64,000 nucleotides of DNA from Acrocarpospora macrocephala (GTDB taxonomy: Bacteria > Actinomycetota > Actinomycetes > Streptosporangiales > Streptosporangiaceae), in assembly GCF_009687865.1 (NCBI RefSeq), contig NZ_BLAE01000019.1, positions 93,481 through 157,480 on the forward strand, read 5' to 3'. Each line of letters opens with the position of its first letter. Position 1 is the stretch's first letter. The notes beneath the pieces were generated by a model. That model saw only the letters and a program-made list of their open reading frames with translations. It was not told the origin of the DNA and ran no database searches. Of this stretch, positions 2,231-49,743 are shown piece by piece. The position numbers and the translations under genes were made by a program.

Positions 2231-2299
2231 CGGTTCGATTCCCGTCACCCGCTCCAACCTAGAAGGCCCAGGTCACGGATGGTTCCCGGACCCGGCCTT
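2231..2299 (+). repeat. tRNA-Gly 3'-end remnant A plus terminator (att-like)
   Basis: Bases 2231-2256 match the T-arm, acceptor strand and CCA of the tRNA-Gly(CCC) fragments at 3974 and 19570. Downstream, AAGGCCC (2263) and GGCCTT (2294) form a hairpin like the terminator behind the copy at 19570, and similarity to that copy continues to about 2336 (GTGCAATT). Only the 3' end is present, so this is not a functional tRNA. It is best read as an old integration footprint. Confidence 0.75.
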
Positions 2300-2333
2300 G
2301 ATCGTTTCTAGAGCTTTTCGATCTTCCGTGCAA

Positions 2334-2456
2334 TTAGCCCACGGGGACCAAGATCCCACCTAGGCCGCCGCCATCTTCATCGTCCTGGCCCTTGATGTGT
2401 CTGTCGATCGCATCTGTGATCACCTTGTCGGCACCGCGCACGGTGTGCTGATCAAG
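2334..2456 (-). pseudogene. C-terminal gene fragment with VRGADKVITDAI motif
   Basis: The minus-strand reading ends with VRGADKVITDAI, an acidic stretch and a stop at 2334. A closely similar tail (VRGADKAITDAI) lies at 47796-47960. The reading farther upstream is low-complexity, is not shared with the second copy and does not look coding, so only a C-terminal scrap appears to survive. The family is not recognised. It sits directly downstream of tRNA remnant A. Confidence 0.45.
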
Positions 2457-2630
2457 GCGGCGGCGCGGCGCGCCGGCCGCGCCACGGCCCCAGCGCTGGC
2501 CAGCCGCCCGGGCATGCGGCCCGGGGGCCGTTCCCGGGGCGGCGCGAGACTCAGAGCCGCCTCCCGTACGCCTGCCGCACGGCACCGATCGAACGCGCCG
2601 ACCCCAGCGCCCCGCCGCCGTAGTCTTGCG

Positions 2631-2903
2631 TCATCGTCCATGTCGCCAAATGGCATTGCCGATCACACCGCCGACGCCACTCGCAAGGAGTATCTCCACT
2701 ATGCTTCGGCGAATACCGCCTGGCCAGAGCGGATCGGGCAGAAATGTCGCAGTGAATACTAGGACCCCGACAACCCAAAGAATCACTGCAACAAACGCAA
2801 GCCACCCTCGCGAAGACCCGAAAAAGAAGATCAGGTTTCCCCACCATTGGCGAATGTTCCGGGGATGATCGTTGAAACGTCGCGCTTTCTCATCATTGCT
2901 CAC
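2631..2903 (-). CDS. Small membrane protein, hypothetical
   Basis: A 90-residue protein starts with GTG at 2903 behind AGGGGG. After a charged head (SNDEKARRF) come two hydrophobic stretches, about residues 36-54 (WLAFVAVILWVVGVLVF) and 68-82, and a short basic tail. The two segments and the Trp/Phe-rich interface suggest a small inner-membrane protein with both ends in the cytoplasm. The DNA is less GC-rich than its surroundings, consistent with acquired DNA between the tRNA remnants. No family is recognised. Confidence 0.6.
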   Translation of the reverse strand: MSNDEKARRFNDHPRNIRQWWGNLIFFFGSSRGWLAFVAVILWVVGVLVFTATFLPDPLWPGGIRRSIVEILLASGVGGVIGNAIWRHGR

Positions 2904-2969
2904 TCGCGCCCCCTAGTGCATGCCATGCCGCTAGTAAGGATCGCACCTAGTGTGCGGCTTGAACAGGAC

Positions 2970-3008
2970 AGTGCCTCCGGCGGGGGCACTCCGGCTCCGG
3001 GGTGATCG
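2970..3008. repeat. Dispersed hairpin repeat, copy 1
   Basis: A unit of about 38 bp begins with the self-complementary AGTGCC-tCCggcGGg-GGCACT and continues CCGGCTCCGGGGTGATCG. Related copies occur at 31812-31850 and 48552-48586. The hairpin resembles a terminator stem but no T-tract follows. The rest of 2904-3126 holds nothing recognisable. Confidence 0.55.
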
Positions 3009-3126
3009 TGAAGGGAAACGACCAGGACCGTAGACACGTAGAGGGCCGCGAGGGCCTGATCTTCCCGTCTGTCATCGACCCGGGCGAGCTGAGCAGTGTC
3101 AATCCCCTCAAACCGTGGAGATGCTC

Positions 3127-3345
3127 TTATGCCACATCGGCCCTGAGCAGCGTCGATGACGATTGCCTCTGCTCGATCAGCAGACGCTCGAATGCGATGG
3201 GTGGCAGCCCGTTATTGGCGCTGTGCCGCCTGCATGTGTTGTAGAAGTCGGCGATCCAGGTCGCGATCTTCAGGCGAGCCTCGACCCGGGCACCGAAGCG
3301 GTGCCGGTGCCCGAACTCGACCTTCAGAGCGGGGTGGACTCGTCC
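3127..3345 (-). pseudogene. IS3-family transposase (OrfB) C-terminal remnant
   Basis: The minus-strand reading to a TAA at 3127 gives about 70 residues typical of the end of IS3-family OrfB, with the motifs LKVEFGHRHRF, EARLKIATWIADFYN, RRHS and LPPIAFE. The catalytic DDE core and OrfA are absent. The 5' boundary runs straight into the 3' end of the neighbouring gene at 3324-3626, so an insertion or deletion joined the two. It is not able to transpose. Confidence 0.8.
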
Positions 3346-3626
3346 AGAGAGCTCGCCCCGTCGCGTGCCGCGATAGCCAAGGCGATGAAATCACGAAACC
3401 GTGCGAACTCTTCCTGGTTCATCTTCAGTCTCACCCCGCCTATGACCTGGTCGTCGCCCCGCCTGACGCCGAGCCGAACCTTGAACCCATCGCCGTGCGG
3501 CTGGACATCCACCCCAAGGAACACCACGTGATAGCGGCTACTCTCGGACAGACCCCGGTGAAAGATTTCAAGGGTCCTGCCGTCCTGCACCAGGATGTAA
3601 TCGCCGAGCTGAAACTCCGCCGCCAT
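3324..3626 (-). CDS. Hypothetical protein, C-terminus probably truncated
   Basis: The reading is 100 residues from an ATG at 3626 behind GGGAGCT. It is a mostly beta-rich protein (GDYILVQDGRTLEIF, YHVVFLGVDV, FKVRLGVRRG) followed by a helix (EEFARFRDFIALAIAARDG). The last few codons overlap the IS3 remnant in another frame, so the natural stop has probably been lost. The helix-after-strands arrangement resembles a PH-like fold, but that is only an impression. No function can be assigned. Confidence 0.55.
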   Translation of the reverse strand: MAAEFQLGDYILVQDGRTLEIFHRGLSESSRYHVVFLGVDVQPHGDGFKVRLGVRRGDDQVIGGVRLKMNQEEFARFRDFIALAIAARDGASSLDESTPL

Positions 3627-3863
3627 AGCTCCCGCTTCGAAACCGTATAGATAACAGTGCCCCCAACTTTCCCATACGATCGATGGCTACATGCCGAGCC
3701 TGTGCGGCAGTGACAGCCGAACACCCCCTCAGCCACATCGGCCTGGAACCAACGACCCCGAAGTCGAACATCTGGCGATGATGTCAGGTGACGGCGCCAG
3801 GAGATCAAGCCCCTATGCGCAAACCACAGCACCAATGGGGAGAGATCGGCGTCGTGCCAGATG

Positions 3864-3893
3864 CGTGCCAGAACAGGCGGAGAAGCGCGGTCA
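3864..3893. repeat. 30-bp dispersed repeat, copy 1
   Basis: This 30-bp stretch (GTGCCAGAACAGGCGG in its left half) recurs at 41501-41530 with two mismatches. Neither copy lies in a convincing gene. The origin is unknown, possibly the edge of a former mobile element. The rest of 3627-3973 shows no gene. Confidence 0.45.
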
Positions 3894-3973
3894 CTCACGA
3901 GGACTTACGGTCACTCGACCCGCCCTGGCCTGCACCCCGTTTCCCCAGCTCAGAGCAGCAAGGTCAGTAGATG

Positions 3974-4018
3974 ATTCCCAAGCTGACAGCGCGGATTCGA
4001 TTCCCGTCACCCGCTCCA
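3974..4018 (+). repeat. tRNA-Gly(CCC) 3'-half remnant B (att-like)
   Basis: These 45 bp run from the anticodon loop (TTCCCAA, anticodon CCC) through anticodon stem, variable loop, T-arm and acceptor to CCA. One change from copy C (19570-19614) breaks the last T-stem pair. AAGGCCCAGGTCAGGGA follows, as in copy C, but the rest of the terminator is missing. The D-arm and 5' acceptor strand are absent. A 3' half starting in the anticodon loop is what integrases that target tRNA genes leave as a core site. Confidence 0.8.
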
Positions 4019-4049
4019 AGAGCGAAGGCCCAGGTCAGGGACACATGTG

Positions 4050-4229
4050 ATGGGCAACTCCGACCACCCTAACCACACCGTGCCGGCCCGCAAGCTGCAG
4101 GCCTACCTGCGCCGGCGCAACGCCAACGCCCGCCACCCCGACGTGCTGACCGCACAGCGACGCGAACGCGCCCGCATCCGCAGCGAGAAACAACGCCGCT
4201 GGGGACGGCCCGCCCGCCGGATCGCCTGA
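4050..4229 (+). CDS. Small basic hypothetical protein
   Basis: A 59-residue, very Arg-rich protein (SEKQRRWGRPARRIA at the end) starts 32 bp after tRNA remnant B. ATG 4050 has AGGGA nine bases upstream, and a GTG directly before it is less well placed. Charge and length suggest a nucleic-acid-binding peptide, but no family is recognised. Confidence 0.55.
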   Translation: MGNSDHPNHTVPARKLQAYLRRRNANARHPDVLTAQRRERARIRSEKQRRWGRPARRIA

Positions 4230-4271
4230 TCAACCCGGCGAACGTTCGTGGTCACCGCACTAGGCAGGGTT

Positions 4272-4309
4272 AGCTATTGCGATTAGCATAAAAGCTATGA
4301 GCAATAGCT
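4272..4309. promoter_or_regulatory. Inverted-repeat operator for the downstream TetR gene
   Basis: Perfect 9-bp arms AGCTATTGC (4272-4280) and GCAATAGCT (4301-4309) flank a 20-bp centre that holds further AGC-TA half-sites and an AT-rich block. The repeat ends 18 bp before the TetR start codon. Autoregulation of the TetR/membrane-protein pair is inferred from this placement. Confidence 0.6.
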
Positions 4310-4327
4310 TCGGTCCTGGAGCCGGTG

Positions 4328-4885
4328 ATGCCTAGGGCGGGCCTGACCCAGGCCCGGGTCGTCGATGTGGCGATCGCCCTTGTTGACGAACGCGGCCTGG
4401 CCGCCCTGACCCTCGCCGCCGTCGCCCAGCGCTGTGGGGTCGCCGCCCCATCCCTCTACAAACACGTCAGCAACATCGCCGACCTGCGCACCCTGGTCGG
4501 CGTACGCGTGCTTCAGGAAATGACGGGGGAACTGGCCACCGCCATTTCCGGCCGCAGCGGCGCCGACGCCGTGGCCTCCCTGATGTGGGCCTACCGCGAC
4601 TATGTGACCGAGCACCCGGCGCGTTACGCGGCGATGCCGGTCGACCCGCTGCACCAACCGCAGTTCGCCAAGGCCGGGTGGCGCATGCTGGAGGTCATAC
4701 AGGCCGCCCTGCGCCCCTGGGGCCTCGATGAGCCGAACCTGATTCATGCCATCCGGGCGGCCAGAGTGATCGTCCACGGCTTCGCCTCACTGGAGGCGGC
4801 CGGTGGCTTCGGACTGCCACACGGCCTCGACGAGACCTTCGAACGCGTGATCCGCATGTTCCTCGCGACCCTTCCCGAACTCTGA
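4328..4885 (+). CDS. TetR/AcrR-family repressor, WHG-type C-terminal domain
   Basis: The protein has 185 residues. The N-terminal helix-turn-helix (about 8-55) contains LTLAAVAQRCGVAAPSLYKHV, and the C-terminal half has the HGFASLEAAGGFG signature of the WHG-type TetR ligand domain. ATG 4328 has GGAG six bases upstream; the adjacent GTG 4325 is too close to it. The membrane-protein gene follows after 15 bp, so the two are probably cotranscribed and repressed through the inverted repeat at 4272-4309. The ligand is unknown. Confidence 0.9.
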   Translation: MPRAGLTQARVVDVAIALVDERGLAALTLAAVAQRCGVAAPSLYKHVSNIADLRTLVGVRVLQEMTGELATAISGRSGADAVASLMWAYRDYVTEHPARYAAMPVDPLHQPQFAKAGWRMLEVIQAALRPWGLDEPNLIHAIRAARVIVHGFASLEAAGGFGLPHGLDETFERVIRMFLATLPEL

Positions 4886-4900
4886 GACTGGAGAAGACCG

Positions 4901-5560
4901 ATGCCCCCTACCCGTGTCCGCCTCGCCGCCGGCGGCCTGGCCTTGGCCGGAGTCCTCTTCTTTCTTTACCCCGCGCTACGCCCCTGGCGTGAGGAGTCCA
5001 CGCCGGACGGAGCGCTACAGGCGATGTCCTCGCCGTGGTGGGTGGCGACCCACCTGTTCGCGATGATCGGCTTCATCCTGGTGCCGCTGGCGCTGCTGGC
5101 CGTACGCCGAGTCGTCGACGCGACGCGGTCCGAACGGCTCGCCGTCACCGCCGCCGTCACCACCTGGATCGGCGTCGGCCTGACCCTGCCGTACTACGGC
5201 GCTGAGGATTTCGCGCTGAACACGATCGCGACGAAGGTCGCCGACGGTCACCCCCTCGACCTGCTCGACCTCGCTGACAGCATCCGCTATCACCCTGCGG
5301 CGGTCACGACCTTCCTGATCGGCCTGCTGTTGCTCGCCATCGGCCCGGTGCTCGCGGCCACGGCGATCTGGCGCTCAGGGGCACTGCCGCGATTCAGCGG
5401 GATCCTCTTCGCCGCCGGCTTCGCCCTGTTCATCCCACAGTTCTTCGCCCCGCCGGCGGTCCGGATGGCGCATGGTGTCCTCGTGGCGGCCGGCTGCATC
5501 TGGCTGGCCGTCGCGCTCTGGCGACACCCCTCCCACCCGGCCGCTGCACAGCTGCCGTGA
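4901..5560 (+). CDS. Integral membrane protein, about six transmembrane segments
   Basis: The product has 219 residues and about six hydrophobic helices (near 9-25, 47-68, 79-98, 128-152, 161-182 and 185-202). GGAGAA precedes ATG 4901. It contains no transport or enzyme motif that I recognise. As the second gene behind a TetR repressor with its own operator, it is probably the regulated target. Export, stress response or lipid-related roles are all possible and none is shown. Confidence 0.8.
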   Translation: MPPTRVRLAAGGLALAGVLFFLYPALRPWREESTPDGALQAMSSPWWVATHLFAMIGFILVPLALLAVRRVVDATRSERLAVTAAVTTWIGVGLTLPYYGAEDFALNTIATKVADGHPLDLLDLADSIRYHPAAVTTFLIGLLLLAIGPVLAATAIWRSGALPRFSGILFAAGFALFIPQFFAPPAVRMAHGVLVAAGCIWLAVALWRHPSHPAAAQLP

Positions 5561-5606
5561 CGTTGACTTCTTCGACGGGGTCGGATCTCAACCGGCCCGA
5601 GCGAGG

Positions 5607-7079
5607 TCACGAACCTGTGTACAACCGATCCAGTCCCACCAACTGCACTCGCCCGTCGCTGCGCGCCGCTGCCTCCTGCACCGCTGGCATGAACCCCATC
5701 CCGCTGAACAGCAGCAGTCGCCCCGGCGCCTCGCCCCGGGCCGCGAGTAGCGCCGCCACCCGCTCCAGCCGCTCCAAGTGCCCGAGCCCCACAACATCCC
5801 CCCACTTGGCCTCCCCAATGGCCAGGAGCGCGCCGTCGGGGCCTCGGACCGCGACGTCTACCTCATGGCTGGTGCGGGTGGTGGCGTCATGAACGACCCC
5901 GGACTGGACGCTTCCGGCCATATCGCCCAGCGTCTCCTCAGACGCGAAGTCCTCACACCACACCCGACACATTCGCTCATACACCGGCCCCGCCACGTTG
6001 CTGCGGAAGCGGGGCTGGGCGGTACGCCAGATCCGCTCGGTACGCCCCTGCCGCACCCGTTCCAACTGCGCCCAGTAGGGACGCATGATCGCGTGGTAGA
6101 AGCGGACCAGCGGCTCAGTGATCCGGTACTCGGAGCGGTTCCGGCGGAAAGCGTCAGGGTCGGCCACCAGGAGGCCGGCGTCCTCCAGCACGGTCAGGTG
6201 GTGGGAGATGTCAACGGCTTTGCGCTCGATCCTGCCCGCGATGCCACTGCGGGTCGCGTTGCCCTCGGCGACCGCGGCCAGAACCGTGTGATACAGGCCG
6301 GTGTCGCGCAGCGCCGGGTCCTCGGCGAGCAGGAAACGCACCTCGCGGAAAAGAGGACTGGCCGGGTTGAGAACGTACTCGACGACCCAGCGGTCGAAGT
6401 CGGCCAGGCCCGCCGGAGCGATCCCGGCCAGATACTCGGTGCGATAGGCGGGGGTGCCACCGACGACGAAGTAGACCAGGGCCGCCAACCGAGGCTCGGC
6501 CGCCAGCCCCCAGAACTCGGCGGCCAGCCGGAAGTTGAAGGTGGGCACAACCAGTTCCAGCCCGGCCCGCCCGCGCAGCGGCGCTTGACCGGAGAGCAGG
6601 CCGCCCATGAAGGAGATCGACGACCCGCACAGCAGCAGACGTGACCTGGACGCCCCCCTCTGCTCGCGGCGTGGCGACAGTGCCTTCTGGATGACCGACG
6701 GCAAGTCCTTGGCGTCGCGCACCAGGTAGGGGAACTCGTCCAGGACGACGGGGACGGTCCGCTCGGCGCCCAGGGAGAGCAAGCCGTCGATCGCCTCCTC
6801 CCAGTTTTCGAACCTGACCCGTCCCGGCGTCCCGGCGAAGGCGGAGACGGCCTCCCCGAGTTGGCGCAGTGCCTCCGCCCTGGGCACGGCCTCGGTGGCG
6901 GCGTAGTAGAAGCCGCCGGTCGCCTCGCAGACGGCTTCTAGCAAGAACGTCTTGCCCTGCCGACGTCGCCCGGAGACCACGCCGAGTGTCGCACCCTGAG
7001 CGTCGTTGGCGACGAACCGCGAGAGCTGTTCCCACTCCCAGGCGCGATCGAACATGTCCGACGGCCGCGGTAACGACAT
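5607..7079 (-). CDS. AAA ATPase with winged-helix and DUF234/nuclease-like C-terminus
   Basis: The protein has 490 residues from ATG 7079 (GAGG upstream); TTG 7091 is less likely. Walker A is GRRRQGKT (37-44), and Walker B VVLDEFPY lies near 110. A winged-helix part follows (GIAGRIERKAVDISHHLTVLEDAGLL, about 280-310). The C-terminal domain has EVDVAVRGPDG and IGEAKWG, the D...(E/x)xK pattern of PD-(D/E)xK-like DUF234 domains. Such proteins have been linked to mobile and defence DNA, but their reactions are mostly unknown. A 39-bp palindrome sits directly upstream. Decayed relatives occur at 34704-34796 and 52736-52840. Confidence 0.85.
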   Translation of the reverse strand: MSLPRPSDMFDRAWEWEQLSRFVANDAQGATLGVVSGRRRQGKTFLLEAVCEATGGFYYAATEAVPRAEALRQLGEAVSAFAGTPGRVRFENWEEAIDGLLSLGAERTVPVVLDEFPYLVRDAKDLPSVIQKALSPRREQRGASRSRLLLCGSSISFMGGLLSGQAPLRGRAGLELVVPTFNFRLAAEFWGLAAEPRLAALVYFVVGGTPAYRTEYLAGIAPAGLADFDRWVVEYVLNPASPLFREVRFLLAEDPALRDTGLYHTVLAAVAEGNATRSGIAGRIERKAVDISHHLTVLEDAGLLVADPDAFRRNRSEYRITEPLVRFYHAIMRPYWAQLERVRQGRTERIWRTAQPRFRSNVAGPVYERMCRVWCEDFASEETLGDMAGSVQSGVVHDATTRTSHEVDVAVRGPDGALLAIGEAKWGDVVGLGHLERLERVAALLAARGEAPGRLLLFSGMGFMPAVQEAAARSDGRVQLVGLDRLYTGS

Positions 7080-7091
7080 CTTGATCCTCAA

Positions 7092-7130
7092 CTTTTAGGA
7101 GTACAGTTCTTAAAAGTGTACTCCTAAAAG
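7092..7130. promoter_or_regulatory. 39-bp palindrome at the ATPase promoter
   Basis: Fourteen-base perfect arms, CTTTTAGGAGTACA (7092-7105) and TGTACTCCTAAAAG (7117-7130), surround an 11-bp spacer that itself holds CTTAAAAG. It ends 12 bp before the ATPase start, covering the expected promoter and leader. It could be the operator of the winged-helix ATPase itself or an RNA hairpin masking its ribosome site. Confidence 0.65.
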
Positions 7131-7138
7131 GCCACGTG

Positions 7139-7174
7139 ATGCGGCCCTGCACGCGTGCGCGTGCAGGGCCGCAT
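7139..7174. terminator. Strong hairpin between the giant exported protein gene and the ATPase gene
   Basis: Sixteen-base arms (ATGCGGCCCTGCACGC, 7139-7154, and its complement at 7159-7174) enclose a 4-base loop. It lies 9 bp beyond the stop of the 7184-12247 gene and upstream of the ATPase promoter palindrome. It is well placed as a terminator for the long upstream gene, although the T-tract is short. Confidence 0.75.
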
Positions 7175-7183
7175 TTGTCCGGG

Positions 7184-10100
7184 TTACGTCAGCCGAACGT
7201 ACCGCCGGTGATCGTCGCAATCATCGTCATCGTGACCACCCTTCGCACGGAACCGGAAGTCGGCCCAGTGCTGTGTGCCGTCGGTGAGGGTCACGACCAG
7301 CCGCCGGCACTGCCCGGCCCACGCCTTGTCGGTCTTCCAGACGTAGGTGTAATGGCCGTCGTCGTAGTGCAGAGACGATTTGCCGGAAGGGGCCGTCGGC
7401 TTGAGGGCGCCGGGTGCGCCGCCACTACAGGGGAACTGGCCGGAGGCCGGTGAACCCTGCGCCAGAATGTTCATGCCCCGGTAGCCGCCGAGCCCGAACT
7501 TGATCGGGATGGACTGGCCGGGTTCCACCACGTTGACCGCCGGCGGGTTGTACACCGGGCGGAGGAAGCCGTGGAACGGCCATGCGGGCGCCTGGACCGT
7601 GACGGTACGCGGCGCCGACACCGAACCGCCGTCGTTGTCGCGGATGGTCACGGTCGCGGTGAACGTGCCCGGGCGGTAGGCGTGCGCCAGGAAGCACGGT
7701 GACACCGCTCCGTCAAGCACCCCGGGGCTCGTCCCGTCACCCCACTGCACCGTGCAGGTGTGCAGGTCCTGCACACCGGCGTCGGTGAACTCGACCCGCG
7801 CGCCGGAGGCGTCGACGGTCACCGCGCCGAGCACCGGCGGTGCGTTGGCGACGGTCACCGTGGTGCTGTCCGAAGCCGTCGCGCCAGCGGCGTCCACCGC
7901 GGTCAGCGTCGCGGTGAACGTGCCCTCGTCGGCACAGGTCACCGACGCCTGAGCGCCTTGACCGGTGACGGCGCATGGCCCGTCCACCCCCCATGACGAC
8001 GTGACACCGGCCGTGTCGTCGGTAACCGTGCCGTTGAGGGCGACCCCGGTGCCCTCCACCGTCGACACGCCGTTCCCGGCGTCCACCACGGGCGCCTTGT
8101 TGTCCTGGTCGTTGTCGGTGATCCAGGCCGTGCCGACCTCACCGCGCAGCACCGTACGGCCGTCGGAGGCGGCCAGGTCGCCCAGCTTGAGCTGGAACGG
8201 CTCGGGCGACTCCACCACCGTGTCGTCCACCGCCGCGGCGGTGACCACGCCGGCCGGGTGATCGGCGGTGAGCTGCAGGGTTCCGGTGCCCGGCGTGATG
8301 TCGCCGGGAGCGTCGGAGCCTCCCGCGGAGGGCTCGACCAGGGTCCACGGCACCGAGACCGTCGTGCCTGCCACCGGCGCGGGGTGGACGGCGATCACGA
8401 AGTCACCTGTGCCGCCCTCGACCAGGGTCGGCGCGGTCACCGACACGTTGAGCACCTCGTCGTCGGCGATGGTCACCGTGCCGCTGTCACCCGCGGCGGC
8501 GGTGCCGTTGGTGACCTTACCGAGCGAGATGGCGAACGTCTCGTTCGGTTCGGGGGTCGTGTCGCCGTTGACGGCCAGGTGGAGCACGTCCTGGGTCTCG
8601 CCAGGGGCGAACCGGATCGTCGCCGCCGCGCTCACGTAGTCCTCGCCCGCCTTCGCGGAACCGTCGGCGGTGGCGTACTCCGCCACGACCTCCTTGCCGC
8701 TGGGCTTGGACAGCCGGAACGTGACCGCGGTGTCGGTGAGGCTGGTGTCCCCTTCCGGCACGGTGCGCGACTGCACCGAGACGGTCGGCGGAGCGTCGTC
8801 GTCGGCGATCGTGCCGGTAGCCTGCGCCCGGGCGATCTTCAGGCCCAGCCGGGCACCGGTGAGCGCGAGGGTGAGCGTCTCGTCATCCTCGTCGATCGCG
8901 TCGTCGGTGACCTTGACCGGGATCGAGGCCTGCGTCTGGCCGGCCGGCACGACCACCGTGCCGGTGCCGAACACCGCGTCGTCCTCCCCGGCGGTGTCGC
9001 CCTGCAACGACCAGGTCAGCGCGACGTCGCCGCCCAGCGCGTGGTCCAGCTTGACGGTGTACGCGCCGCCGTCCGCCTCGGTCAGCGCCGCGTCCTCCAC
9101 TGTCGCGGTCACCCATGCCGCCGGTAGTTCCAGCTCCGGGTCGGCCTTGGGGCGGGTGAGCGCGAGACCGTTCCACGTGTCGGTCGCGACCTGCAGGACC
9201 ACCTGGCCGTCGATCGGGACCACGGTCGGCGTGAGGACTCTGGACGTGCCGGTGCCGGCTGCGCCGTTGGTGTTGCTGCCCCAGACCATCATCGAGCCGT
9301 CGGCGCGGTTGGCCAGCGTGGTCGAGGAGTTCTCGTTGTCGATGCCGACGATCGGCGGACCGTCCGGCATCGGTGCGCGAGTGGGCGCCGACAACGTGCA
9401 CCGCGTGTCGCCGCAGATCGGCGCGAGGTCGGCGTTGAAGTTCTCGCCCCACATCCAGATCGAGCCGTCCTCCTTGAGCGTGACCGCCGCGTCGCCGGCT
9501 ACGGAGACGTCCACGACTCCGCTGCCCTGGCCGAGCGTGTCAACCGGCCGCGGAAGCCACGGGTTGCGCGCCGGGTCCTGGGTGTTCCACTTGCGACCCA
9601 GTGTCGGGTCGGTGCTGCCGCAGGAGAGTACGGTGCCGTCCTTCGTGAGGAACAGCGCGCTCGACTTGGTAATGGCGATCTGCCGTACGTTGGTGAGGTC
9701 CGGGATGCGCGTGGGATAGAGCGTGTCCACCGCGGCCCCCGAGCCGTCGCAGTTCACCCGGCCCCACGCCATGACCGTGCCGTCCTCCATCAGCGCGTAA
9801 TCGGACGACACGCCGGCCTGCACGTCGCGCACGCCGGTGAGCAGGGTGCCCGTGGCGTCGGCGACCACGAAGTCCGGGTACGGCCGGTTGCCACTGGCCT
9901 CCCCGCCGCCGAGGTTGCCGGCGGTGTTGCGGCCCCAGGTCAGCACCTTCCCGTCGGTGCGGACCGCGGCGACGTGATTGTCCGTGACGGACAGTTGCCG
10001 TACGCCGGACAGCAGACCCTGCCCGCCGGGCCCCAGCGGCTGCACCGGCTGGAGCCGGAGGCTGGAAGACCCGTCCCCTATCTCGCCGAAGAGCTGGTTG

Positions 10101-12247: not shown

Positions 12248-12356
12248 GTCGATCCCTCTACTCCTGGCCGGATTCACCAGAGAGATCGTCGGTGTCAGCA
12301 CTTGGAGGGCGTTTAAGGCCGACTTGGACGTCACTTCAAGTCCCGGGGTGGGTCGT

Positions 12357-14597
12357 CTACTCGGCGTGAACGAGCCACAGGTCGCGGTCGTCGTCCCGGC
12401 CGTCGACGATCACGGTGTCGGCGACGGGCGGGTATCCGGTGGCGATGAGGGTGTACTGGCCGCCGGTCAGGTCGGCGAAGGTGTACGCGCCGTCCGCACC
12501 CGTGGTCGTGGTGCCGACCACGTTCCCGGCCGTGTCCAGCAAGGTCACCCGCGCGTCGTTCAGCGGGACGCCGTCGCGCGCGCGTACGGTGCCCCGGATC
12601 CGGACGCCGGGCCGCAACTCGACGTCCTGCCTGGTCTGACCGGTGCCGTTGACCTCGACTGGAACGGCTGCGGGGCAATAGGAGGCCGCGCCGACCGCGA
12701 GTGTGTAGCTGCCCGAGCCCACCCCGGAGAAGCTGTAGCAGCCCGCTGCGTCGGTGCTGCCCGAGGTGACGACCTCGCCGCGGACGTCGGTCAGCACGAT
12801 CACCGCGCTGGGCACCCGCCTGCCCTCCAGGTCGCGTACGACACCGGTCAGCTTGTTCGAGCTCGCGAGGATCAGGTGGAAGTCGACCGGCTGGTCTCCC
12901 ACCACCAGGGTGGCCACCTGCGGATCATGATGAGCGGCCGAGGTGATCAGGACATAGGTGTCGGTGCCAGGCGTCCAGACGCTGTAGGCGCCATCGGCTC
13001 GGGTCAGGGCCCGGCCGACCTGGTGGCCGTGCACGTCGATCAGAGTCAGGGTGGCATCGTCGACCGGGTGTCCGTCGTCACCACTGACGCAACCGCGGAT
13101 CTCGACACCGCCCTTCGGCCGGTCCGCCCAGGTGGCGCGCACCGGCTGGGCGTTGGCAGGCGCCAGGGTGGTCACCTGCGCCGCAGCCACGTTCCCGCGG
13201 GGAAGGAAGGCGGCGAGAAGGAAGGCGAGGAGGGCGGCGCCGAAGCCGAGGACCATGACGACGCGGAAACCGTCCTCGGAGGGCAGCGCGACCGGGCCGA
13301 ACGTGGTGGTCATCTGGGCCAGGACGACACCCGCCGCGGCGCTGGCGATGGCGGTGCCGACGGCCCGCATGAGGGTGTTGAGGCTGTTCGCGGCGGCCGT
13401 CTCGGACACCGGCACGGCGCCCATGACGAGGGCGGGCATCGAGGCGTAGGCGAATCCGATACCGGCTCCAATGACGCAGGAGACCAGGACGAAGTGCCAG
13501 ACCTCGGACATCAACGCGATGTTGAGGCCGTAGCCGGCGGCCACGATGACAGCCCCGATCATCAAGGTCACCTTGGGCCCCCTGGCCGCGGACAGGCGAG
13601 CCGACAGGGGCGCCAGGACCATCATCACCAGGCCGAACGGCGCCATGACCAGGCCCACGGTCAGCATCGACCGCCCCAGGCCGTAGCCGGTGGCCACGGG
13701 CAGCTGCAGCAGCTGCGGCAGCACCAGGGACATCGCGAACATCGAGAAGCCCAGCATGAGGGAGGCGAGGTTGGTGAACAGCACCTGACGCCGTGCGCTG
13801 GTGCGCAGGTCCACCATCGGCTCCCTGGTACGCAGCTCCCACCAGCCCCACAGCAGCAGCACGACAACCGCCGCGGCGAACAGGCCGATGGTGAGGGCGT
13901 CGCTCCAGCCCCAGTCGGCGCCCTTGGAGATCGCCAAGAGCAGGCACACCAGCGCGGACGACAGCCCGGCGGCGCCGACCAGGTCGAAACGCCCGCCGCT
14001 GCACACCGCCGATCTGGGCACGAACGTCAGCACCAGCACAGTGGCCACGACACCGAGGCCCCCTGAGGTCCAGAACAGCACGTGCCAGTCGGCGTTCTCG
14101 GCGATGAGGGCGGCGCCCGGCAGACCCATGGCACCGCCCACGCCGAGCGAGGCGCCCATCAGCGCGGTCGCGGAGCCGAGCCTGTCGGGGGGCAATTCGT
14201 CGCGCATGATGCTGATGCCGAGCGGGATGACGCCGGCTGCCAGGCCTTGCAGCGCCCGTCCGACGACCATCGGGATCAAAGAGTCACTGAGAGCGCACGT
14301 GACGGACCCGGCGACCAGCAGGATCAGGCTGGTCAGAAGCATGCGCCGCTTGCCGTGCATGTCTCCCAGCCGTCCCATCACCGGCGTGGCGACCGAGCCC
14401 GCCAGCAGCGTGGCCGTGATCGCCCAGGTGGCGTCGGCGGCCGCGGCTCCCAGGAGCTTGGGGAACTCGGGAATCAGCGGGATCACCAGGGTTTGCATCA
14501 CCGCCACCACGATCCCGGCGAAGGCGAGCACGATCACGAAAGCGCCCGACCGCGACGGACCGTCCGCCTGAGCAACGCGGGAGGAGAAATTCGCCAT
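12357..14597 (-). CDS. MFS transporter (DHA2-like) fused to three Ig-like carboxypeptidase-regulatory domains
   Basis: The protein has 746 residues. ATG 14597 has AGGGAG six bases upstream; ATG 14603 overlaps that site. Residues of about 15-475 form 14 membrane segments with MFS motif A (GRLGDMHGKRRM) and motif C-like GALLGVGGAMGLPG-type spacing, as in DHA2 drug exporters. The C-terminal 260 residues are three beta-sandwich repeats of about 80 residues, each with the pattern GxVxDxxGxPVxxAxVxLxDxxGxxV...DxxGxYxFxxL. Membrane topology should decide whether these face outside. The giant exported protein gene follows after 109 bp on the same strand, so joint expression is possible. Confidence 0.85.
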   Translation of the reverse strand: MANFSSRVAQADGPSRSGAFVIVLAFAGIVVAVMQTLVIPLIPEFPKLLGAAAADATWAITATLLAGSVATPVMGRLGDMHGKRRMLLTSLILLVAGSVTCALSDSLIPMVVGRALQGLAAGVIPLGISIMRDELPPDRLGSATALMGASLGVGGAMGLPGAALIAENADWHVLFWTSGGLGVVATVLVLTFVPRSAVCSGGRFDLVGAAGLSSALVCLLLAISKGADWGWSDALTIGLFAAAVVVLLLWGWWELRTREPMVDLRTSARRQVLFTNLASLMLGFSMFAMSLVLPQLLQLPVATGYGLGRSMLTVGLVMAPFGLVMMVLAPLSARLSAARGPKVTLMIGAVIVAAGYGLNIALMSEVWHFVLVSCVIGAGIGFAYASMPALVMGAVPVSETAAANSLNTLMRAVGTAIASAAAGVVLAQMTTTFGPVALPSEDGFRVVMVLGFGAALLAFLLAAFLPRGNVAAAQVTTLAPANAQPVRATWADRPKGGVEIRGCVSGDDGHPVDDATLTLIDVHGHQVGRALTRADGAYSVWTPGTDTYVLITSAAHHDPQVATLVVGDQPVDFHLILASSNKLTGVVRDLEGRRVPSAVIVLTDVRGEVVTSGSTDAAGCYSFSGVGSGSYTLAVGAASYCPAAVPVEVNGTGQTRQDVELRPGVRIRGTVRARDGVPLNDARVTLLDTAGNVVGTTTTGADGAYTFADLTGGQYTLIATGYPPVADTVIVDGRDDDRDLWLVHAE

Positions 14598-15040
14598 GCG
14601 CATCTCCCTACAGGGTCTGAGCAGGCAAAGAACGAGGTTCTCGTGAATCAGTCACTCGTCCGGGGAGATCCGAGCGGATTTATGACCACACTGAGCGGCC
14701 ACACCTCGAAGTAGGTCCTGCCGGCACGACCTGGCCGGCACCCGCCCGATCCCACTGCTAGCCAGCCGACTGGCGGTCCGGAGACGCGCCCGCCTCGCCG
14801 CTCACGCCATCCTGGCCGTGCTGATCCTCGCGAGCGCGCTCGCCGCCAGTTCCGCCTTCGGCGGCTTCCAGCTCTTGAGCGCAAGGCCAGGCCTGACGCC
14901 TCGGCAGGTCGGAGCAGTGCCGATCGCTTGTCCGTCTCACGAACATCGCTGTCCGCTGTGAGCCTGTCGCGGCGAGCACCGGCTTCCTACTGTCGATGTC
15001 GACCACGAAGTGTCGATATCGATCACGACAGGAGGACGCG
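14598..15040. other. Intergenic region between divergent genes, no supported gene
   Basis: It separates the leftward MFS gene from the rightward PhyH gene. A plus-strand stretch near 14757-14950 reads as one hydrophobic helix (AHAILAVLILASALAA) without a good start, which may be decayed coding sequence. GTGTCGATATCGATCACGAC at 15009-15028 lies close to the PhyH start and contains overlapping GATATC/ATCGAT half-sites. No clear promoter elements could be fixed. Confidence 0.4.
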
Positions 15041-15805
15041 ATGACCGTGACCACGATCGATCTGCGGACCCTCGCCGGCCACTATGCCGAGTACGGGTAC
15101 GTTCTGGTGAAGGGCTTGCTGACCAGGGATGAGGCGGCGGCGTACCGCCGGGTCGCCCATGACCTGCTCGGGCAGCAGGACCGAGACGAGGACCCGACCT
15201 GGGGTTCGGCCGCTGAGCTCGCGGGCGGTGCGCCGACGCGGCTGCAGCACCTGCATGACGCGCAGTTCTACGCGGCGGCGTTCTCCCGGTTGCTGGTGGA
15301 TGAGCGGTTCACCTCCGTCGCCGCGGCCGTGCTGGGGGTGCCGAACGTACAGCTGCACCACACCAAACTGTTCGTGAAACCGCCGGAGAACGGCTCACCG
15401 TTCCCGCTGCACCAGGACCACCCGTTCTTCCCCCACACCCATCATCGGGTCGGCGCCGCGATATTCCACCTGGACGACGCGCCGGAGCAGAAGGGCTGCG
15501 TCCGCGTCGTGCCGGGCAGCCACCTCCAGGGGCCGCGGGAGCACGACCCCGAGGATGGCCATCACCTCACCGACGTACCGTTCGAGGCCGCGGTGCCGCT
15601 GTCCGCGGAGGCGGGGGACGTGCTGTTCTTCTCCTACCTGACCGTTCACGGCTCGGGTGTGAACGTCAGCGACGAGGCCAGGACCACCTGGCTGGTGCAG
15701 TTCCGCGACCCGGCCGACCCGCCGGCGATCCAGGCGCACGACTGGTCACTGGGGCAGGGCATGATGCTGTCGGGAGTGGACCCGACAGGCAGGAGACAGG
15801 CTTGA
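15041..15805 (+). CDS. Phytanoyl-CoA dioxygenase (PhyH) family Fe(II)/2-oxoglutarate oxygenase
   Basis: The protein has 254 residues from ATG 15041, preceded by GGAGG. The facial triad is visible as HQD (about H124 and D126) and the distal His in TVHGSG (about 202). Arg in ARTTWLVQFRD would bind 2-oxoglutarate. The family hydroxylates small molecules using iron, oxygen and 2-oxoglutarate. The araC gene overlaps its stop by four bases, so regulator and enzyme are cotranslated. The substrate is unknown and is probably a compound sensed by that regulator. Confidence 0.88.
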   Translation: MTVTTIDLRTLAGHYAEYGYVLVKGLLTRDEAAAYRRVAHDLLGQQDRDEDPTWGSAAELAGGAPTRLQHLHDAQFYAAAFSRLLVDERFTSVAAAVLGVPNVQLHHTKLFVKPPENGSPFPLHQDHPFFPHTHHRVGAAIFHLDDAPEQKGCVRVVPGSHLQGPREHDPEDGHHLTDVPFEAAVPLSAEAGDVLFFSYLTVHGSGVNVSDEARTTWLVQFRDPADPPAIQAHDWSLGQGMMLSGVDPTGRRQA

Positions 15806-16707
15806 GCTTGGCGGACGTGGCCGGTGCCGGTCGGCTGCCCGACCTGACCGGCCTGCTGGACACCTGCCAGGTCGGAGGGTTCAGGGCTGACTTCGTCAGC
15901 TGGGGGTTCTACACCAAGCCCGCCTGGCGTAACTACTGGCACCGGCACTCCTTCCACGAGGTTTGCCTGGCCTACACCGGTGCGGGCCGGTTCAGCGTCG
16001 GCGGGGAACACCATGACGTCGGCACCGGTGAGGTGTTCCTGGCCAGGCCGGGTGATGTGCACGAGATCGAGTCGAGCCGGGAGGACCCGCTCGGCATCGC
16101 CTTCTGGGGCTTCACCCTGCGGGGCGGCCAGGACGCTCCGGGTCCGGACGAGCGTGGCTGGTGGTCCGGCCTCACCGACCCCGCCGGTCCCGTGGTGTCG
16201 CGCCGTACCGGCTCGCTGGCCGAGGTCGTCACCGCACTCGCCGGGTACGCCGACCCGGTGCGGTCCGGGTACGACGCCGGCCTGGCCGGTCTCGGCGCCG
16301 CGCTGGTGGTGGACACCGCCAGGGCGTTCGCGTACGAGGACGACCTGCAGGTCGAGCCGCCTCCCAGGGACCGGCCGTCCCAGGCGGTGGCGGCGATGCG
16401 GCGGCACCTCGCCGACAACCTGTGCCGGCCGGTCCGGGTCAGGGATGTGGCCGCCACCGTCCACCTGTCCGAACGGCACGCCGAGCGGCTGTTTCGCGAG
16501 CAGACAGGCGCGTCCCTGATGGCGACCCTGCGCAGGATGCGGCTCGAGCTGGCCGCCGCCCTGCTGCTGGACACGGGTCCCACGGTGACGGAGGTGGCCC
16601 GGGCCTGCGGCTACCCCGACGTCCGCGCCTTCAGCACGGCTTTCCGCCGCCTGCACGGACACTCACCGCTTGAACACCGCGCCCGCAGCGGAACCCTGCA
16701 CCTGTAG
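15802..16707 (+). CDS. AraC-family regulator with N-terminal cupin domain
   Basis: The protein has 301 residues from TTG 15802, which overlaps the PhyH stop as TTGA and has AGGAG upstream. A cupin ligand domain (about 40-110: WHRHSFHEVCLAYTGAGRF, ARPGDVHEI) is followed by two helix-turn-helix units (about 205-295: VRDVAATVHLSERHAERLFREQTG and VTEVARACGYPDVRAFSTAFRR). It probably activates or represses the PhyH operon in response to a small ligand. The last 12 codons and the next 24 bases recur at 17801-17860. Confidence 0.9.
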   Translation: MSLADVAGAGRLPDLTGLLDTCQVGGFRADFVSWGFYTKPAWRNYWHRHSFHEVCLAYTGAGRFSVGGEHHDVGTGEVFLARPGDVHEIESSREDPLGIAFWGFTLRGGQDAPGPDERGWWSGLTDPAGPVVSRRTGSLAEVVTALAGYADPVRSGYDAGLAGLGAALVVDTARAFAYEDDLQVEPPPRDRPSQAVAAMRRHLADNLCRPVRVRDVAATVHLSERHAERLFREQTGASLMATLRRMRLELAAALLLDTGPTVTEVARACGYPDVRAFSTAFRRLHGHSPLEHRARSGTLHL

Positions 16708-16731
16708 CGATCTCCAACGCGGACCAGCGCC
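16672..16731. repeat. 60-bp direct repeat, left copy (araC 3' end)
   Basis: It covers the final codons of the AraC gene (EHRARSGTLHL, stop) and 24 bp of 3' flank. The right copy at 17801-17860 differs at about five positions. The two copies bracket 1.07 kb that contains the DUF2199 gene. The region 16732-17133 shows no convincing gene. Confidence 0.75.
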
Positions 16732-17133
16732 TACCCACGGGGTGCCGACGGATCATTGGGGTAGGGGATATCAACCGAGCATGCGGCCTGGGCCGGTCCC
16801 GACCGCCGTCGGCTCGGGCCGCGCGGCCCTCGCTGCTTGGACATCAAAACGATCTAGGTCATCATCCCGCCGCTCTGTGGAATTGTCATGTTCTGACCGT
16901 TTTCATGATCGGCGGACATCCTCGTACGGCAATAGCTGGCTTTCGCCATCACCGGCCCCTGGGCGCGCGGCGCCCTCTGACCCGTGTGACGGTCGTAGAC
17001 CCGTTTTGACGGTCGCTGGGCTCGCCACGATCGGACCGCCCCACCAGGCGGCCCGTCGGGCGGGCCCGAGCCACATTTCCAGACGCGAGCTCACCGCACA
17101 CTGCGCGTGCGACTTGGGGGCTATTACCACTCT

Positions 17134-17634
17134 CTACGGCACCCTGGACAGCACATCGGCATGCGACCACTCCCGGCGAAGGACATCCGACAGGACTGCA
17201 TGGTGGCTACGCATGATGTACGGCAGTTGCTCGCGGTCCCGAACGACCGCCTCTGCTGGGGCCGCCATGACTTGATCTCCCCACGGAGGGATCGCATTAG
17301 CCAGCACCCCGGACAGCTTCAACGTCGCGTACTCCGGTTCCCACCAAATCGCGTACGCCTTATGCAACACATCCGGATGCACGCCCAACCACACACCGAA
17401 GGTCACGCTGTAGCCTCCCGTCAACGACACCGGCAGGAGGCAGCGGATAAACGCGCCATAGCCCTGTACCTGCATCATGTTGTCGGTGCTCCACGTGAGG
17501 GCCTCGCGCTCAGCCTCATCAAGTCCCAGCACGGGATCCGGGAGGCGGAATCGGACATGCCGATCATGCCGATCCCGCGGCTCACCACATTCCGCGCAGA
17601 CATCACCGACGATCGAGTGACCTTCCAAGCTCAT
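17134..17634 (-). CDS. DUF2199-family protein
   Basis: About 166 residues from ATG 17634 (GTAGGG upstream), or 172 from GTG 17652. The head carries a Cys pair and His (CAECGEPRDRH), then RFRLPDPVL, LTWSTDNMM, FIRCLLPVSLTGG and FGVWLGVHPDVL, the conserved order of DUF2199. The function of this family is not established. The gene is isolated, flanked by the araC-end direct repeat, and in less GC-rich DNA than its neighbours, so it appears to be inserted cargo. Confidence 0.8.
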   Translation of the reverse strand: MSLEGHSIVGDVCAECGEPRDRHDRHVRFRLPDPVLGLDEAEREALTWSTDNMMQVQGYGAFIRCLLPVSLTGGYSVTFGVWLGVHPDVLHKAYAIWWEPEYATLKLSGVLANAIPPWGDQVMAAPAEAVVRDREQLPYIMRSHHAVLSDVLRREWSHADVLSRVP

Positions 17635-17800
17635 GGCCGCGACCCTACTCACGTCAGCGCAGTGCGGGATAACGAACAGCGGCGTGACCTGGTGTCCCAG
17701 TCAGGTTGCGCACGACCGACGCTGGAGTTGGCCGGGTCGGTGGTCCACTCGCCGAGTTCGGGTACCAGCGGCGAGGGTGAGGTCGGGACGCGCATCAGAC

Positions 17801-17860
17801 GAGCATCGCGCCCGCAGCGGAACCCTGCACGTGTAGCGATCTCCAACGTGGGCCAGCGCC
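17801..17860. repeat. 60-bp direct repeat, right copy (araC 3' end without the gene)
   Basis: It matches 16672-16731, including the translated EHRARSGTLHV, a stop and the flank TAGCGATCTCCAACG. No araC body precedes it. The pattern fits duplication of the gene end during insertion of the DUF2199 segment. The remaining sequence to 18090 shows no supported gene. Confidence 0.75.
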
Positions 17861-18090
17861 AGGGCTTCCATTCAGGAAATAGCTGACATTTTCACTGAGG
17901 TGGCCAGCGACCATCGACTAGCGCCAATAAAGGGATATGCAGAAGGAAAAAGGCGGCTGTCGCCGTTTCTGGCTCTAGCGAACGGTAAGCAAGTCTCCAG
18001 AAGAATGGCTCGCCGACGCTCTCGAACGACACTCGCCCGATTCGGGAAATGTCCGAATTTCGGGACAGCGGCACGTTCCAGGGGGAGAGA

Positions 18091-19269
18091 ATGCCCAAGC
18101 GTCCCAATATTGTCTGGTTTCTTGCGATCGGCGCCACACTAACTGGTGTGGCCATGCCCATGGGCACTCCTGCCATCGCCGTATCCGCCATCACGAGCCA
18201 TCCCAACCAGAAATCGGATCCGCCGAGTGATCGGATCGCTGCGGCGATGCGGGCTTACCTGCGGGATCTGGCCGCAAAGGAGCAGTTCACCGGCACAGCG
18301 CTGGTAGTACGGCGCGGGGAGGTGCTGGTGCGTGCGGCTGCCGGCGCGGCCGACGCAGAAGAGGACATCCCCAACCGGCCGGACACGGTCTTCCGAATCG
18401 CCTCGGTCACCAAGCAGTTCACCTCGATGCTCGTGCTGAAGCTGCGCGACCGTGGGCTGCTTGGCCTGGAAGACCGGGTCTGTCCGTATCTCATCCCGGG
18501 ATACATCAGGACCTGCCCGCAAGCGTGGAGGCCCATCACGATCCGCGAGATCCTGACGCACACCTCCGGCATCCCCGACATCCAGCAGCTGCCCGGCTTC
18601 TATATCAAGCTCTCGCAACCGACCACGACCCGGGAGCTCATCCAGCGGTTCGTGAACAAGCCGCTGGACTTCAAGCCCGGCACCAGCTGGAAGTACAGCA
18701 ACAGCGGCTACATCCTGGCCGGGGCGATCATCCAGGCGGTGACGCGCAAGCCGTACGGCACCGTACTGCACGAAGAGATCACCGGCCCGCTGAGCCTTCG
18801 GCACACCGGCTACAGCAGGAGAAATCCGCCCGCCGGGTACGCGAAGGGCTACTTCACGGTTGGATCACCGGCCCCGCCCATCAACGGCTCCCAGGCGTTC
18901 TCCGCGACCGGCATCTACGCCAACGCCGACGACATCGTCCGCTGGGACCGGTCGTTCGGCGCGCACACGGTCGCGCCACCCGCCACCGTCAAACAGGCGT
19001 TCACACCACAGGCACCGTGCCCCTCCAACGGCTGCCTCAACCTACCGTCGAGCGCGTACGCCTTCGGCTGGCTCGTCGACCGGCTCCATGGACACCGGCT
19101 CCGATACCACCCAGGTCTTCTCCAGGGCTACGCGGCGAGCAACATGTACCTGCCCGATGACGACATCGCGGTAGTCGTGCTCAGCAACGTGGAAGAAACT
19201 GACACCAACGGCATCGCTCGCCACCTCGCCACAATGGCCCTCAAGTCCGCGAGTGCTCACGATCACTAG
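18091..19269 (+). CDS. Secreted serine beta-lactamase / DD-peptidase fold hydrolase
   Basis: The protein has 392 residues from ATG 18091 behind GGGGAGAG. Residues 1-33 form a signal peptide (MPKRPN, hydrophobic core, AIAVSA). The class C-type catalytic set is complete: S105-V-T-K108, Y202-S-N204 and a third motif HPG near residue 340 in place of KTG. Members hydrolyse beta-lactams, D-alanyl peptides or esters outside the cell, and the HxG third motif favours esterase or D-aminopeptidase relatives over true beta-lactamases. It is monocistronic. No regulator is adjacent. Confidence 0.88.
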   Translation: MPKRPNIVWFLAIGATLTGVAMPMGTPAIAVSAITSHPNQKSDPPSDRIAAAMRAYLRDLAAKEQFTGTALVVRRGEVLVRAAAGAADAEEDIPNRPDTVFRIASVTKQFTSMLVLKLRDRGLLGLEDRVCPYLIPGYIRTCPQAWRPITIREILTHTSGIPDIQQLPGFYIKLSQPTTTRELIQRFVNKPLDFKPGTSWKYSNSGYILAGAIIQAVTRKPYGTVLHEEITGPLSLRHTGYSRRNPPAGYAKGYFTVGSPAPPINGSQAFSATGIYANADDIVRWDRSFGAHTVAPPATVKQAFTPQAPCPSNGCLNLPSSAYAFGWLVDRLHGHRLRYHPGLLQGYAASNMYLPDDDIAVVVLSNVEETDTNGIARHLATMALKSASAHDH

Positions 19270-19569
19270 CTGTGACCGGCCGCCATAGCAGACTGGGGCA
19301 ATCGACGGTCCAAGGGTTCGCTCCCCCACCCCAGCCCATCAAAGACGATGTTCAGTCCAGCTCTAGCCACCGCTCCACCGGCTCAAGCAGACAGGCGAAC
19401 GGTTCAAGTCCCCCCACCGATCCGCTCACCCTATGTGACCAACGCCAGCGGACAAGGCATGTTCAGGGCTGATGGTCGTGCCATTAACAGGGGTAACTAG
19501 AGGTCAACTACGGTCACTCATGACCAGGCCATGCCCAGGTCAGGGCGTCCACGGGCCGTTATCCATGCA

Positions 19570-19659
19570 ATTCCCAAGCTGACAGCGCGGGTTCGATTCC
19601 CGTCACCCGCTCCAAGCGTAAAGGCCCAGGTCAGGGAGCATATATCCCAACCGGGCCTT
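19570..19659 (+). repeat. tRNA-Gly(CCC) 3'-half remnant C plus intrinsic terminator (att-like)
   Basis: Bases 19570-19614 are the 3' half of tRNA-Gly from the TTCCCAA anticodon loop to CCA, with an intact T-stem. AAGGCCC (19621) and GGGCCTT (19653) form the tRNA terminator. No D-arm or 5' acceptor strand precedes it, so it is a remnant. The signalling operon to its right looks like chromosomal backbone, so this may be the innermost boundary of the acquired DNA. The rest of 19270-19699 holds no gene. Confidence 0.8.
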
Positions 19660-30493: not shown

Positions 30494-30613
30494 GCTGGGT
30501 CTCCTTGGTACGGTACGGCCACGGTGGCCGCATCCGCTCCTGAGACGGAGCCGCCAGGCCGTTCTCGACATCCTCTTCGAGAACCTCTTGACGGTGGCAG
30601 TGCCGCGCGCAGC

Positions 30614-49723: not shown

Positions 49724-49743
49724 TCCGCGCATAAGCGACAGCC

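Follow-up and report, generated by a model that had tools for sequence, protein, structure and literature searches.

We analysed a 64,000-nucleotide stretch of the Acrocarpospora macrocephala genome (hereafter the window; C19:93481-157480, C19 being contig NZ_BLAE01000019.1 of the source genome, G000, which comprises 12.1 Mb in 166 contigs) that carries three displaced copies of the 3' end of a tRNA-Gly(CCC) gene. As the initial annotation had noted, the copies share one orientation, and the positions given there are correct to within 1 base. The 25-mer GGTTCGATTCCCGTCACCCGCTCCA occurs on the plus strand at 2232-2256 (exact), 3994-4018 (one mismatch) and 19590-19614 (exact). Chance similarity was ruled out, as none of 100 shuffles matched the 25-mer and a reversed-pattern control found nothing in the genome. 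Two of the copies retain a 42-bp core running from the anticodon loop to ..CGCTC. The core at 19571-19612 (0 mismatches) is identical to the 3' half of the intact tRNA-Gly(CCC) and is followed by CA at 19613-19614, in keeping with the earlier description of two copies that extend exactly from the anticodon loop to CCA; the same description fails for the core at 3975-4016, which has one mismatch and is followed by CA at 4017-4018. The first copy has lost the left half of its core (core start 2213, 13 of 42 positions mismatched over 2213-2254) and is preserved only at 2232-2256, from the T arm to CCA.

The source array and the two window segments

ARAGORN found no tRNA in the window. The complete gene had been predicted to lie to the left, and an intact tRNA-Gly(CCC) is present there at C19:73524-73595, on the same strand as the copies and 19,886 bases from window position 1. 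Together with nine displaced 3'-half copies it forms an array of ten, in one orientation, with displaced core starts at C19: 74478, 75865, 77822, 79022, 84135, 90864, 95693 (partial), 97455 and 113051. The three tandem copies first reported are thus the last of nine, and six lie between the intact tRNA and the window. The intact gene ends in CTC-TC and does not encode CCA; the window copies do. Genes for a dCTP deaminase, a DUF47 protein and a PHO4 transporter make up the left host flank in the source genome, and homologous DNA lies on the same side of the tRNA in the five relatives (G004, G019, G047, G103 and G113) that were compared and whose stretch extends that far.

The window copies delimit two segments between attachment (att) sites. 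The first, of 1.7 kb (2255-3974), is a decayed integrative element. On its left it carries the C-terminal remnant of a tyrosine integrase (2334-2441, minus strand), which reads towards the att copy as do the near-full-length integrases of relatives, and on its right a P-type arm of about 114 bp (3853-3966; nhmmer E 1e-29) that is shared with many other segments. A possible hairpin (AAGGCC..GGCCTT, 2263-2299) after the first copy contains the arm-like motif GCCCAGGTCA at 2266-2275. The second segment, of 15.6 kb (4017-19570), shows the same motif at 4028-4037, starting 11 bp past the core, no trace of an integrase, and a partial, weaker arm match at 19477-19543 (nhmmer E 2e-8). Its genes include a TetR regulator and another whose product is weakly similar to ATPase_2, below the Pfam cut-off. 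The last core is followed by a further possible hairpin (AAGGCCC..GGGCCTT, 19621-19659) with an arm-like motif at 19624-19633. These hairpins do not correspond to the sequence that now follows the intact tRNA, which looks unrelated.

Conservation in place of the three fragments and the intervening DNA, the outcome named in advance as contrary to repeated integration, was not seen in G004, the closest relative read (95.8% identity in the tRNA flank). There, 10.5 kb of the 15.6-kb segment is present at 96.9% in a different order, and the 100 kb inspected contain no match longer than 350 bp to the 1.7-kb segment. The intact tRNA found where predicted and the integrase remnants beside several copies support repeated integration into one tRNA-Gly gene; the integrase itself, for which a search next to the tRNA had been proposed, is not found intact there in the source genome.

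A block of BTAD/NB-ARC regulator and ATP-binding cassette (ABC) transporter genes, conserved in relatives, lies at C19:85378-90464, to the left of the window copies. Because the copies lie beyond this conserved block, they represent either the array's older, outer portion or a second tract. As a native right border the block was only partly upheld. It lies right of the last copy in G002, G019 and G113; in G004 it stands between the main array and, to its right, a degenerate core with 8 mismatches; and in the source genome it lies between the copies at 84135 and 90864.

Three further observations concern the source genome. On C114:14284-16545 (L052), a tRNA-Gly(TCC) is followed 2.19 kb later by its own 3'-half copy, with an integrase fragment and the same right-end arm between them; this locus represents the same element family at an isoacceptor tRNA. 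On C32:109375-126053 (L049, L050), an exact core copy and a partial 3' copy lie 16.6 kb apart, an integrase fragment adjoins the exact copy, and no tRNA-Gly occurs in the stretch read around them. Overlapping 180-183 bp matches (83-91%) between window 1-190 and C19:92522-93078, spaced about 122-126 bp apart, are tandem repeats in a long minus-strand gene cut by the window edge.

Tandem arrays in related genomes

The core was found, with at most three mismatches, in 109 of the 120 family genomes searched, and 43 of the 120 gave three or more matches, not always on one contig. With G004 added, 44 genomes had three or more copies; 30 were used, contributing 39 stretches from 17 tool-defined genera. 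At up to 10 mismatches these stretches contain 172 copies, none of which is opposite to the others of its own stretch. The copies, with three 3'-only copies added, define 137 att-to-att segments, of which 82 measure 600-3000 bp, 36 measure 3-10 kb, 15 are longer and four shorter; 40 fall between 850 and 1450 bp. The largest array has up to 14 copies including the tRNA. Mismatches between displaced cores and the tRNA of the same array increase outward, a trend equalled in only 8 of 2000 permutations. What the window alone could not reveal is that, in these relatives, many segments are integrase-less cassettes of about 1 kb that have ends in common and turn up in more than one genus.

The presence of one tRNA in several copies on a single strand could in principle reflect tandem duplication of the tRNA and decay of the 5' halves, with no mobile element involved. 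We give this reading almost no credence and rejected it: most copies begin sharply at the anticodon loop, with a shared arm of non-tRNA sequence to their left and, often, integrase sequence to their right.

The typical copy runs from the anticodon loop (TTCCCAA) to CGCTC, and the next two bases are most commonly CA. With one mismatch allowed, a CCCAGGTCA-like motif lies within 150 bp to the left of 108/127 copies, the first copy of each stretch being omitted (shuffled, 4), and 119 of 132 placements start 21-50 bp upstream. To the right it is found within 150 bp of 109/163 copies (shuffled, 2), with 107 placements starting 10-19 bp past the core. The opposite strand gave 8/127 on the left and 7/163 on the right. 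The right-hand motif can form the 5' arm of a hairpin, for example AAGCCCAGG..CCTGGGCTT, and the 70 bases after the 163 copies folded with a mean z of -2.2 (55% below -2) relative to 30 simple base shuffles each; copies with more than five mismatches were excluded from the flank, hairpin and CCA counts.

The two bases after the core of intact tRNAs are CA in 18 of 29, TC in eight and others in three. Such variation is expected if each insert replaces the 3' half together with its flank. The displaced cores of two genomes include a variant that pairs with the host's own anticodon stem (3/3 copies in G092, L162; 2/3 in G116, L157), and inserts may therefore be matched to the host tRNA. From the start of the copies, the arm motifs, the swapped bases and these stem-matched variants we infer a crossover in or near the anticodon loop.

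Integrases and a shared right-end arm

A search with a single integrase gave 14 near-full-length relatives including itself, at 37-88% identity over 92 pairs. Thirteen of the 14 start 66-112 bp to the right of a core and read towards it; the other lies at 729 bp. The recombinase is a Phage_integrase with a SAM-like N-terminal domain, and PF00589 was confirmed in the two that were scanned (G019 and G106). Eleven of the 137 closed segments carry such an integrase, mostly segments of 11-18 kb, although one (G106) is only 2.6 kb. Nine of the 11 occupy position 1 from the tRNA and two position 2, an enrichment at position 1 with P 3.9e-5 over the 110 segments in tRNA-headed arrays. The remaining three integrases belong to segments that are not closed; two of them follow the first copy and one follows the third. 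A further 35 of the 137 segments contain a partial or broken integrase (0.07 to 1.0 of the protein, four nearly complete and interrupted) ending within 400 bp of the core; nine show other matches and 82 none.

The one element scanned for its full gene content, segment 1 of G019 (11.8 kb), encodes an integrase, HTH_17, RepSA (4.5e-104), FtsK_SpoIIIE (1.8e-10), GntR and NUDIX proteins. Judged by these genes it would be an actinomycete integrative and conjugative element (AICE), since it combines a tyrosine integrase beside an att site at a tRNA 3' end with RepSA and an FtsK/SpoIIIE (TraB) protein.

A profile of the right-end arm (about 114 bp) matches 121 of the 137 segments, against 1 of 367 control stretches. 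The arm is present in all 11 segments with an intact integrase and, among small segments (3.2 kb or less), in 55/62 that lack any integrase and 22/24 with a remnant. Because the profile matches both classes, the small cassettes appear to end in the same recombination site as the AICEs. As a query, 128 bp of the arm found matches in 88 of 345 genomes of the order, in 19 of 70 genera. There are 88 small segments without an intact integrase, 62 with none detectable and 26 with remnants or other matches. They have att sites on both sides, by construction, as expected of cis-mobilizable elements (CIMEs), and 78 of the 88 have the right arm. In 24 of the 88 an integrase remnant beside the core shows derivation, by deletion, from an AICE or another integrative and conjugative element (ICE); the remainder share only the ends.

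The 42-bp cores and the shared arms supply repeated homology, and homologous recombination between arrays, independent of any integrase, might have redistributed the cassettes; the genes of the 15.6-kb segment are indeed reshuffled between G000 and G004. We consider this improbable. At 42 bp the core would be a short substrate, the boundaries of the cassettes fall at cores, the arm-like motifs keep a fixed layout around the core, and 13 of the 14 near-full-length integrases start 66-112 bp from it.

Cassettes recurring between genera

Fifteen cassette pairs from different genomes cover at least 60% of each other, six of them between genera. The 876-bp cassette of G019 and G113 is fully covered at 95.3%, against 87.4% for the host flank, and a cassette of about 1121 bp in G019 and G120 is 94% covered at 89.1%, against 82.8%. 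Two AICE-sized cross-genus pairs gave 76.2% against 85.1% for the flank, which is below it, and 90.4% against 88.7%, slightly above.

The 876-bp cassette with its cores was then searched in 341 family genomes, giving 30 loci. In 15 of these, from five genera, a VapBC-like cassette of 844-918 bp lies between two cores, both with at most three mismatches in 14. Several of the other 15 loci carry the VapBC-like genes beside a single core or without any, which shows that the operon is not confined to arrays. Among the 105 pairs of the 15 loci, three have at least 300 bp of left flank in common, which in one of them is the host DNA flanking the tRNA. A single pair, G019 and G324, is alike over 1122 bp on the right, corresponding to the next cassette. 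As to a plasmid or phage vehicle, a distant blastn search with this cassette and flank gave no record covering 80% in 72,556 plasmid and 50,697 phage records.

These data bear on the view that arrays reflect accretion and decay only, in which full elements inserted in tandem shrank in place and small segments never moved alone. The integrase remnants retained beside att in 35 of the segments fit such a history, as do the outward increase in core mismatches, the half-deleted first window copy and the 30 source-genome integrase loci compared, none of which is an intact array-type gene. Near-identical integrase-less cassettes nevertheless occur in different genera, at different array positions and beside unrelated neighbours, with identities (95.3% and 89.1%) above those of the host flank. 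Independent decay to the same end points would also be an unlikely origin for 14 of 15 VapBC-like cassettes with two well-preserved cores. We regard decay in place as an unlikely account of the whole.

Movement in cis only is a stronger contender, though still doubtful to us: cassettes would travel as composites with a neighbouring AICE, by CIME accretion and mobilisation, and the AICE would later be lost. This is the route described for CIMEs in the available portions of PMC7563491 and PMC5704250; integrase-bearing, AICE-like segments do adjoin small cassettes, and the VapBC-like and Gp49/helix-turn-helix (HTH) cassettes are colinear in G019 and G324. Against it, in two of 15 loci the VapBC-like cassette immediately follows the intact tRNA without an intervening AICE, and the cassette's flanks are mostly unrelated; both observations would also be compatible with transfer in cis and later loss of the AICE.

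Cargo of the small segments

Two proteins are encoded by the 876-bp cassette: one with a PIN domain (Pfam 8.5e-15), for which VapC26 (7.5e-11) was the sole hit in a comparison with solved structures, and a partner of 81 aa. We scanned 104 proteins from 69 of the 88 small segments with Pfam. Among the best 25 of 97 families were Gp49 (HigB-like; 7), HTH_37 (7), DUF6247 (4), PemK (3), SUKH-1 (3), MazE (2) and PrlF (2); solved structures support the HigB label weakly (E 0.037). Eight modules were each found in small segments from at least two genera. Four of them include a toxin-type protein supported by Pfam (Gp49 or PIN), and the others are a DUF6247 pair, a PIN-like and a transposase-like module, both recognised by eye, and one of no assigned type. 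As a control, 46 small proteins (30 from left of the tRNA, two from the right end of the contig and 14 from right of arrays in relatives) yielded none of Gp49, PIN or PemK among the best 25 of 68 families matched. PADLOC returned mostly weak matches to HTH regulators among the best 25 of 31 families and was not used.

In the source array, Pfam matches comprise a MazE-type antitoxin, GYD, DUF2283 and DUF4839, with a Schlafen/AlbA_2 protein recognised through its G004 homologue; no complete toxin-antitoxin pair was confirmed by Pfam. A DUF6247-family protein with an 81-aa partner occurs in cassettes of three genera (L127:5919-6491, L131:18571-19146 and L156:5311-5886), and a fourth genus has a related first protein without the 81-aa partner. 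We suspect that the two proteins form a toxin-antitoxin pair.

Further right in the window, at 49721-50579 (C19:143201-144059), the AbrB/MazE-like cassette cargo of C19:74.7-75.7 kb is present a second time; near this copy there is no core with at most three mismatches, more degenerate cores having been sought only up to C19:130000. Window 30604-31364 contains a gene that appears PIN-like by eye. In G004 and G034 its homologue directly follows the last core on the right; in G013 it lies at a greater distance on that side, and in G003 and G036 it is inside segments.

Discussion

Taken together, the results are best explained by serial integration of AICEs at one tRNA, shrinkage of the inserts to integrase-less cassettes, and remobilisation of these by AICE integrases, a reading to which we assign a probability of about 0.8. 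The copies would be att sites of a family of AICE-type elements with tyrosine integrases, whose target is the anticodon loop of the only tRNA-Gly(CCC) gene. Every element, on arrival, would bring a replacement for the 3' half of the tRNA along with its own flank, often a hairpin, so that the tRNA remains complete and the previous 3' half is displaced outward with the older insert. Repeated rounds would generate an array in which the youngest insert adjoins the tRNA. Most inserts would then lose their integrase and transfer genes, leaving small cassettes between shared arms, often of one operon and in several cases encoding toxin-antitoxin systems. As these retain arms and core, the integrase of a co-resident AICE could probably excise and re-insert them, either on their own (in trans) or linked to the AICE (in cis), and remobilisation of this kind would explain the spread of cassettes between genera.

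Several points weigh against this reading. Excision, circular forms and integrase activity are presumed from sequence. The arm profile was built from the same sequences in which the arm was counted, which flatters the count. Eleven of the 120 family genomes have no core match, and those with arrays were chosen for high copy number, so that the figures describe array-bearing genomes. The G098 integrase behind the third copy indicates that integrases are not strictly limited to positions 1-2. In the source genome, none of the 30 PF00589 loci compared (of 37, the other seven being weak matches) is an intact array-type integrase, and a helper encoded there was accordingly rejected. Only two small cross-genus cassettes clearly exceed host-flank similarity: the G019/G103 cassette (68% covered) is about equal to its flank (85.2% against 84.0%), and for the G047/G098 cassette (64% covered, 72.4%) there was no flank to set against it. 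The VapBC-like cassette followed by the Gp49/HTH cassette is colinear in two genera (G019 and G324). Finally, G319 has tRNA-Gly(CCC) and a VapBC-like cassette in opposite orientation; in that genome (L305, L306) two contigs have 11.5 kb of identical sequence, a perfect inverted repeat of 201 bp lies at the tRNA and the cassette, and an inversion between cores is possible.

Related arrangements are known. In the available portions of two reports, Streptococcus CIMEs have lost integration and transfer genes, keep their att sites and lie in tandem at one gene end (PMC7563491, PMC5704250); classical CIMEs with cargo measure 1.2-13 kb (PMC7563491). The arrays resemble them in having att-flanked elements without an integrase, in tandem at one gene end. 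The Streptococcus composites described there consist of two or three elements, whereas here up to 14 copies, many single-operon cassettes and one arm common to 19 of 70 genera are found. The Dehalococcoides ssrA islands, as far as the accessible text of PMC3146451 describes them, likewise comprise tandem islands with more than a dozen direct repeats downstream of one RNA gene, and 15 islands without an integration module are described there as possible CIMEs. That system uses a serine recombinase and the T loop of tmRNA and carries rdhA cargo, in contrast to the tyrosine integrase, the presumed tRNA-Gly anticodon loop and the small cargo, including toxin-antitoxin genes, seen here. In the excerpts available, AICEs and defective AICEs are similarly stacked between direct repeats at one tRNA, both in Streptomyces, by accretion at a tRNA-Arg (PMC9513070), and in Frankia, where AICEs lie in tandem (PMC3218068). 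Those examples involve one to three elements plus a trace, in contrast to the many small cassettes per array described here. Among the matches listed in openly licensed PMC literature, in titles and the beginnings of abstracts, tRNA-Gly arrays in Streptosporangiaceae were not found described.

In kind, the arrays represent CIME accretion, and their size, number and toxin-antitoxin cargo make them an integron-like variant. Relative to the parts of the cited reports available, what goes beyond these systems is the number and smallness of the cassettes, the occurrence of one arm on units without an integrase in many genera, and the toxin-antitoxin cargo. In a chromosomal integron, small cassettes that all carry one recombination sequence are lined up, toxin-antitoxin cassettes among them, and the newest member stands at a fixed end. 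The likeness is one of layout (IntI, attC and attI were not searched for): an array of small cassettes, headed here by a tRNA, with toxin-antitoxin cargo. Cross-genus copies are what suggests that these cassettes are mobile. The arrays differ in being anchored to a working tRNA gene, in their AICE-type recombinase, and in a repeat that is the 3' half of the tRNA.

A more specific proposal, which we advance tentatively and at somewhat less than even odds, is a tRNA-anchored, integron-like capture system. Integrase-less cassettes of about 1 kb with complete arms, many encoding toxin-antitoxin systems, would be excised as circles and inserted in trans at the anticodon loop of tRNA-Gly(CCC) by resident AICE integrases; the 3' half and flank would be swapped at each step, building up a time-ordered library across the Streptosporangiaceae. 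If cassettes do move alone, an ordinary tRNA-targeting integrase and an attachment site of about 200 bp (presumably arm, tRNA half and arm) would suffice for integron-like gene stacking in actinomycetes with large genomes. With inserts growing older outward, the history of gene acquisition could be read from the arrays. Since many cassettes may encode toxin-antitoxin systems, it becomes testable whether such genes prevent the collapse of an array through recombination between its repeats.

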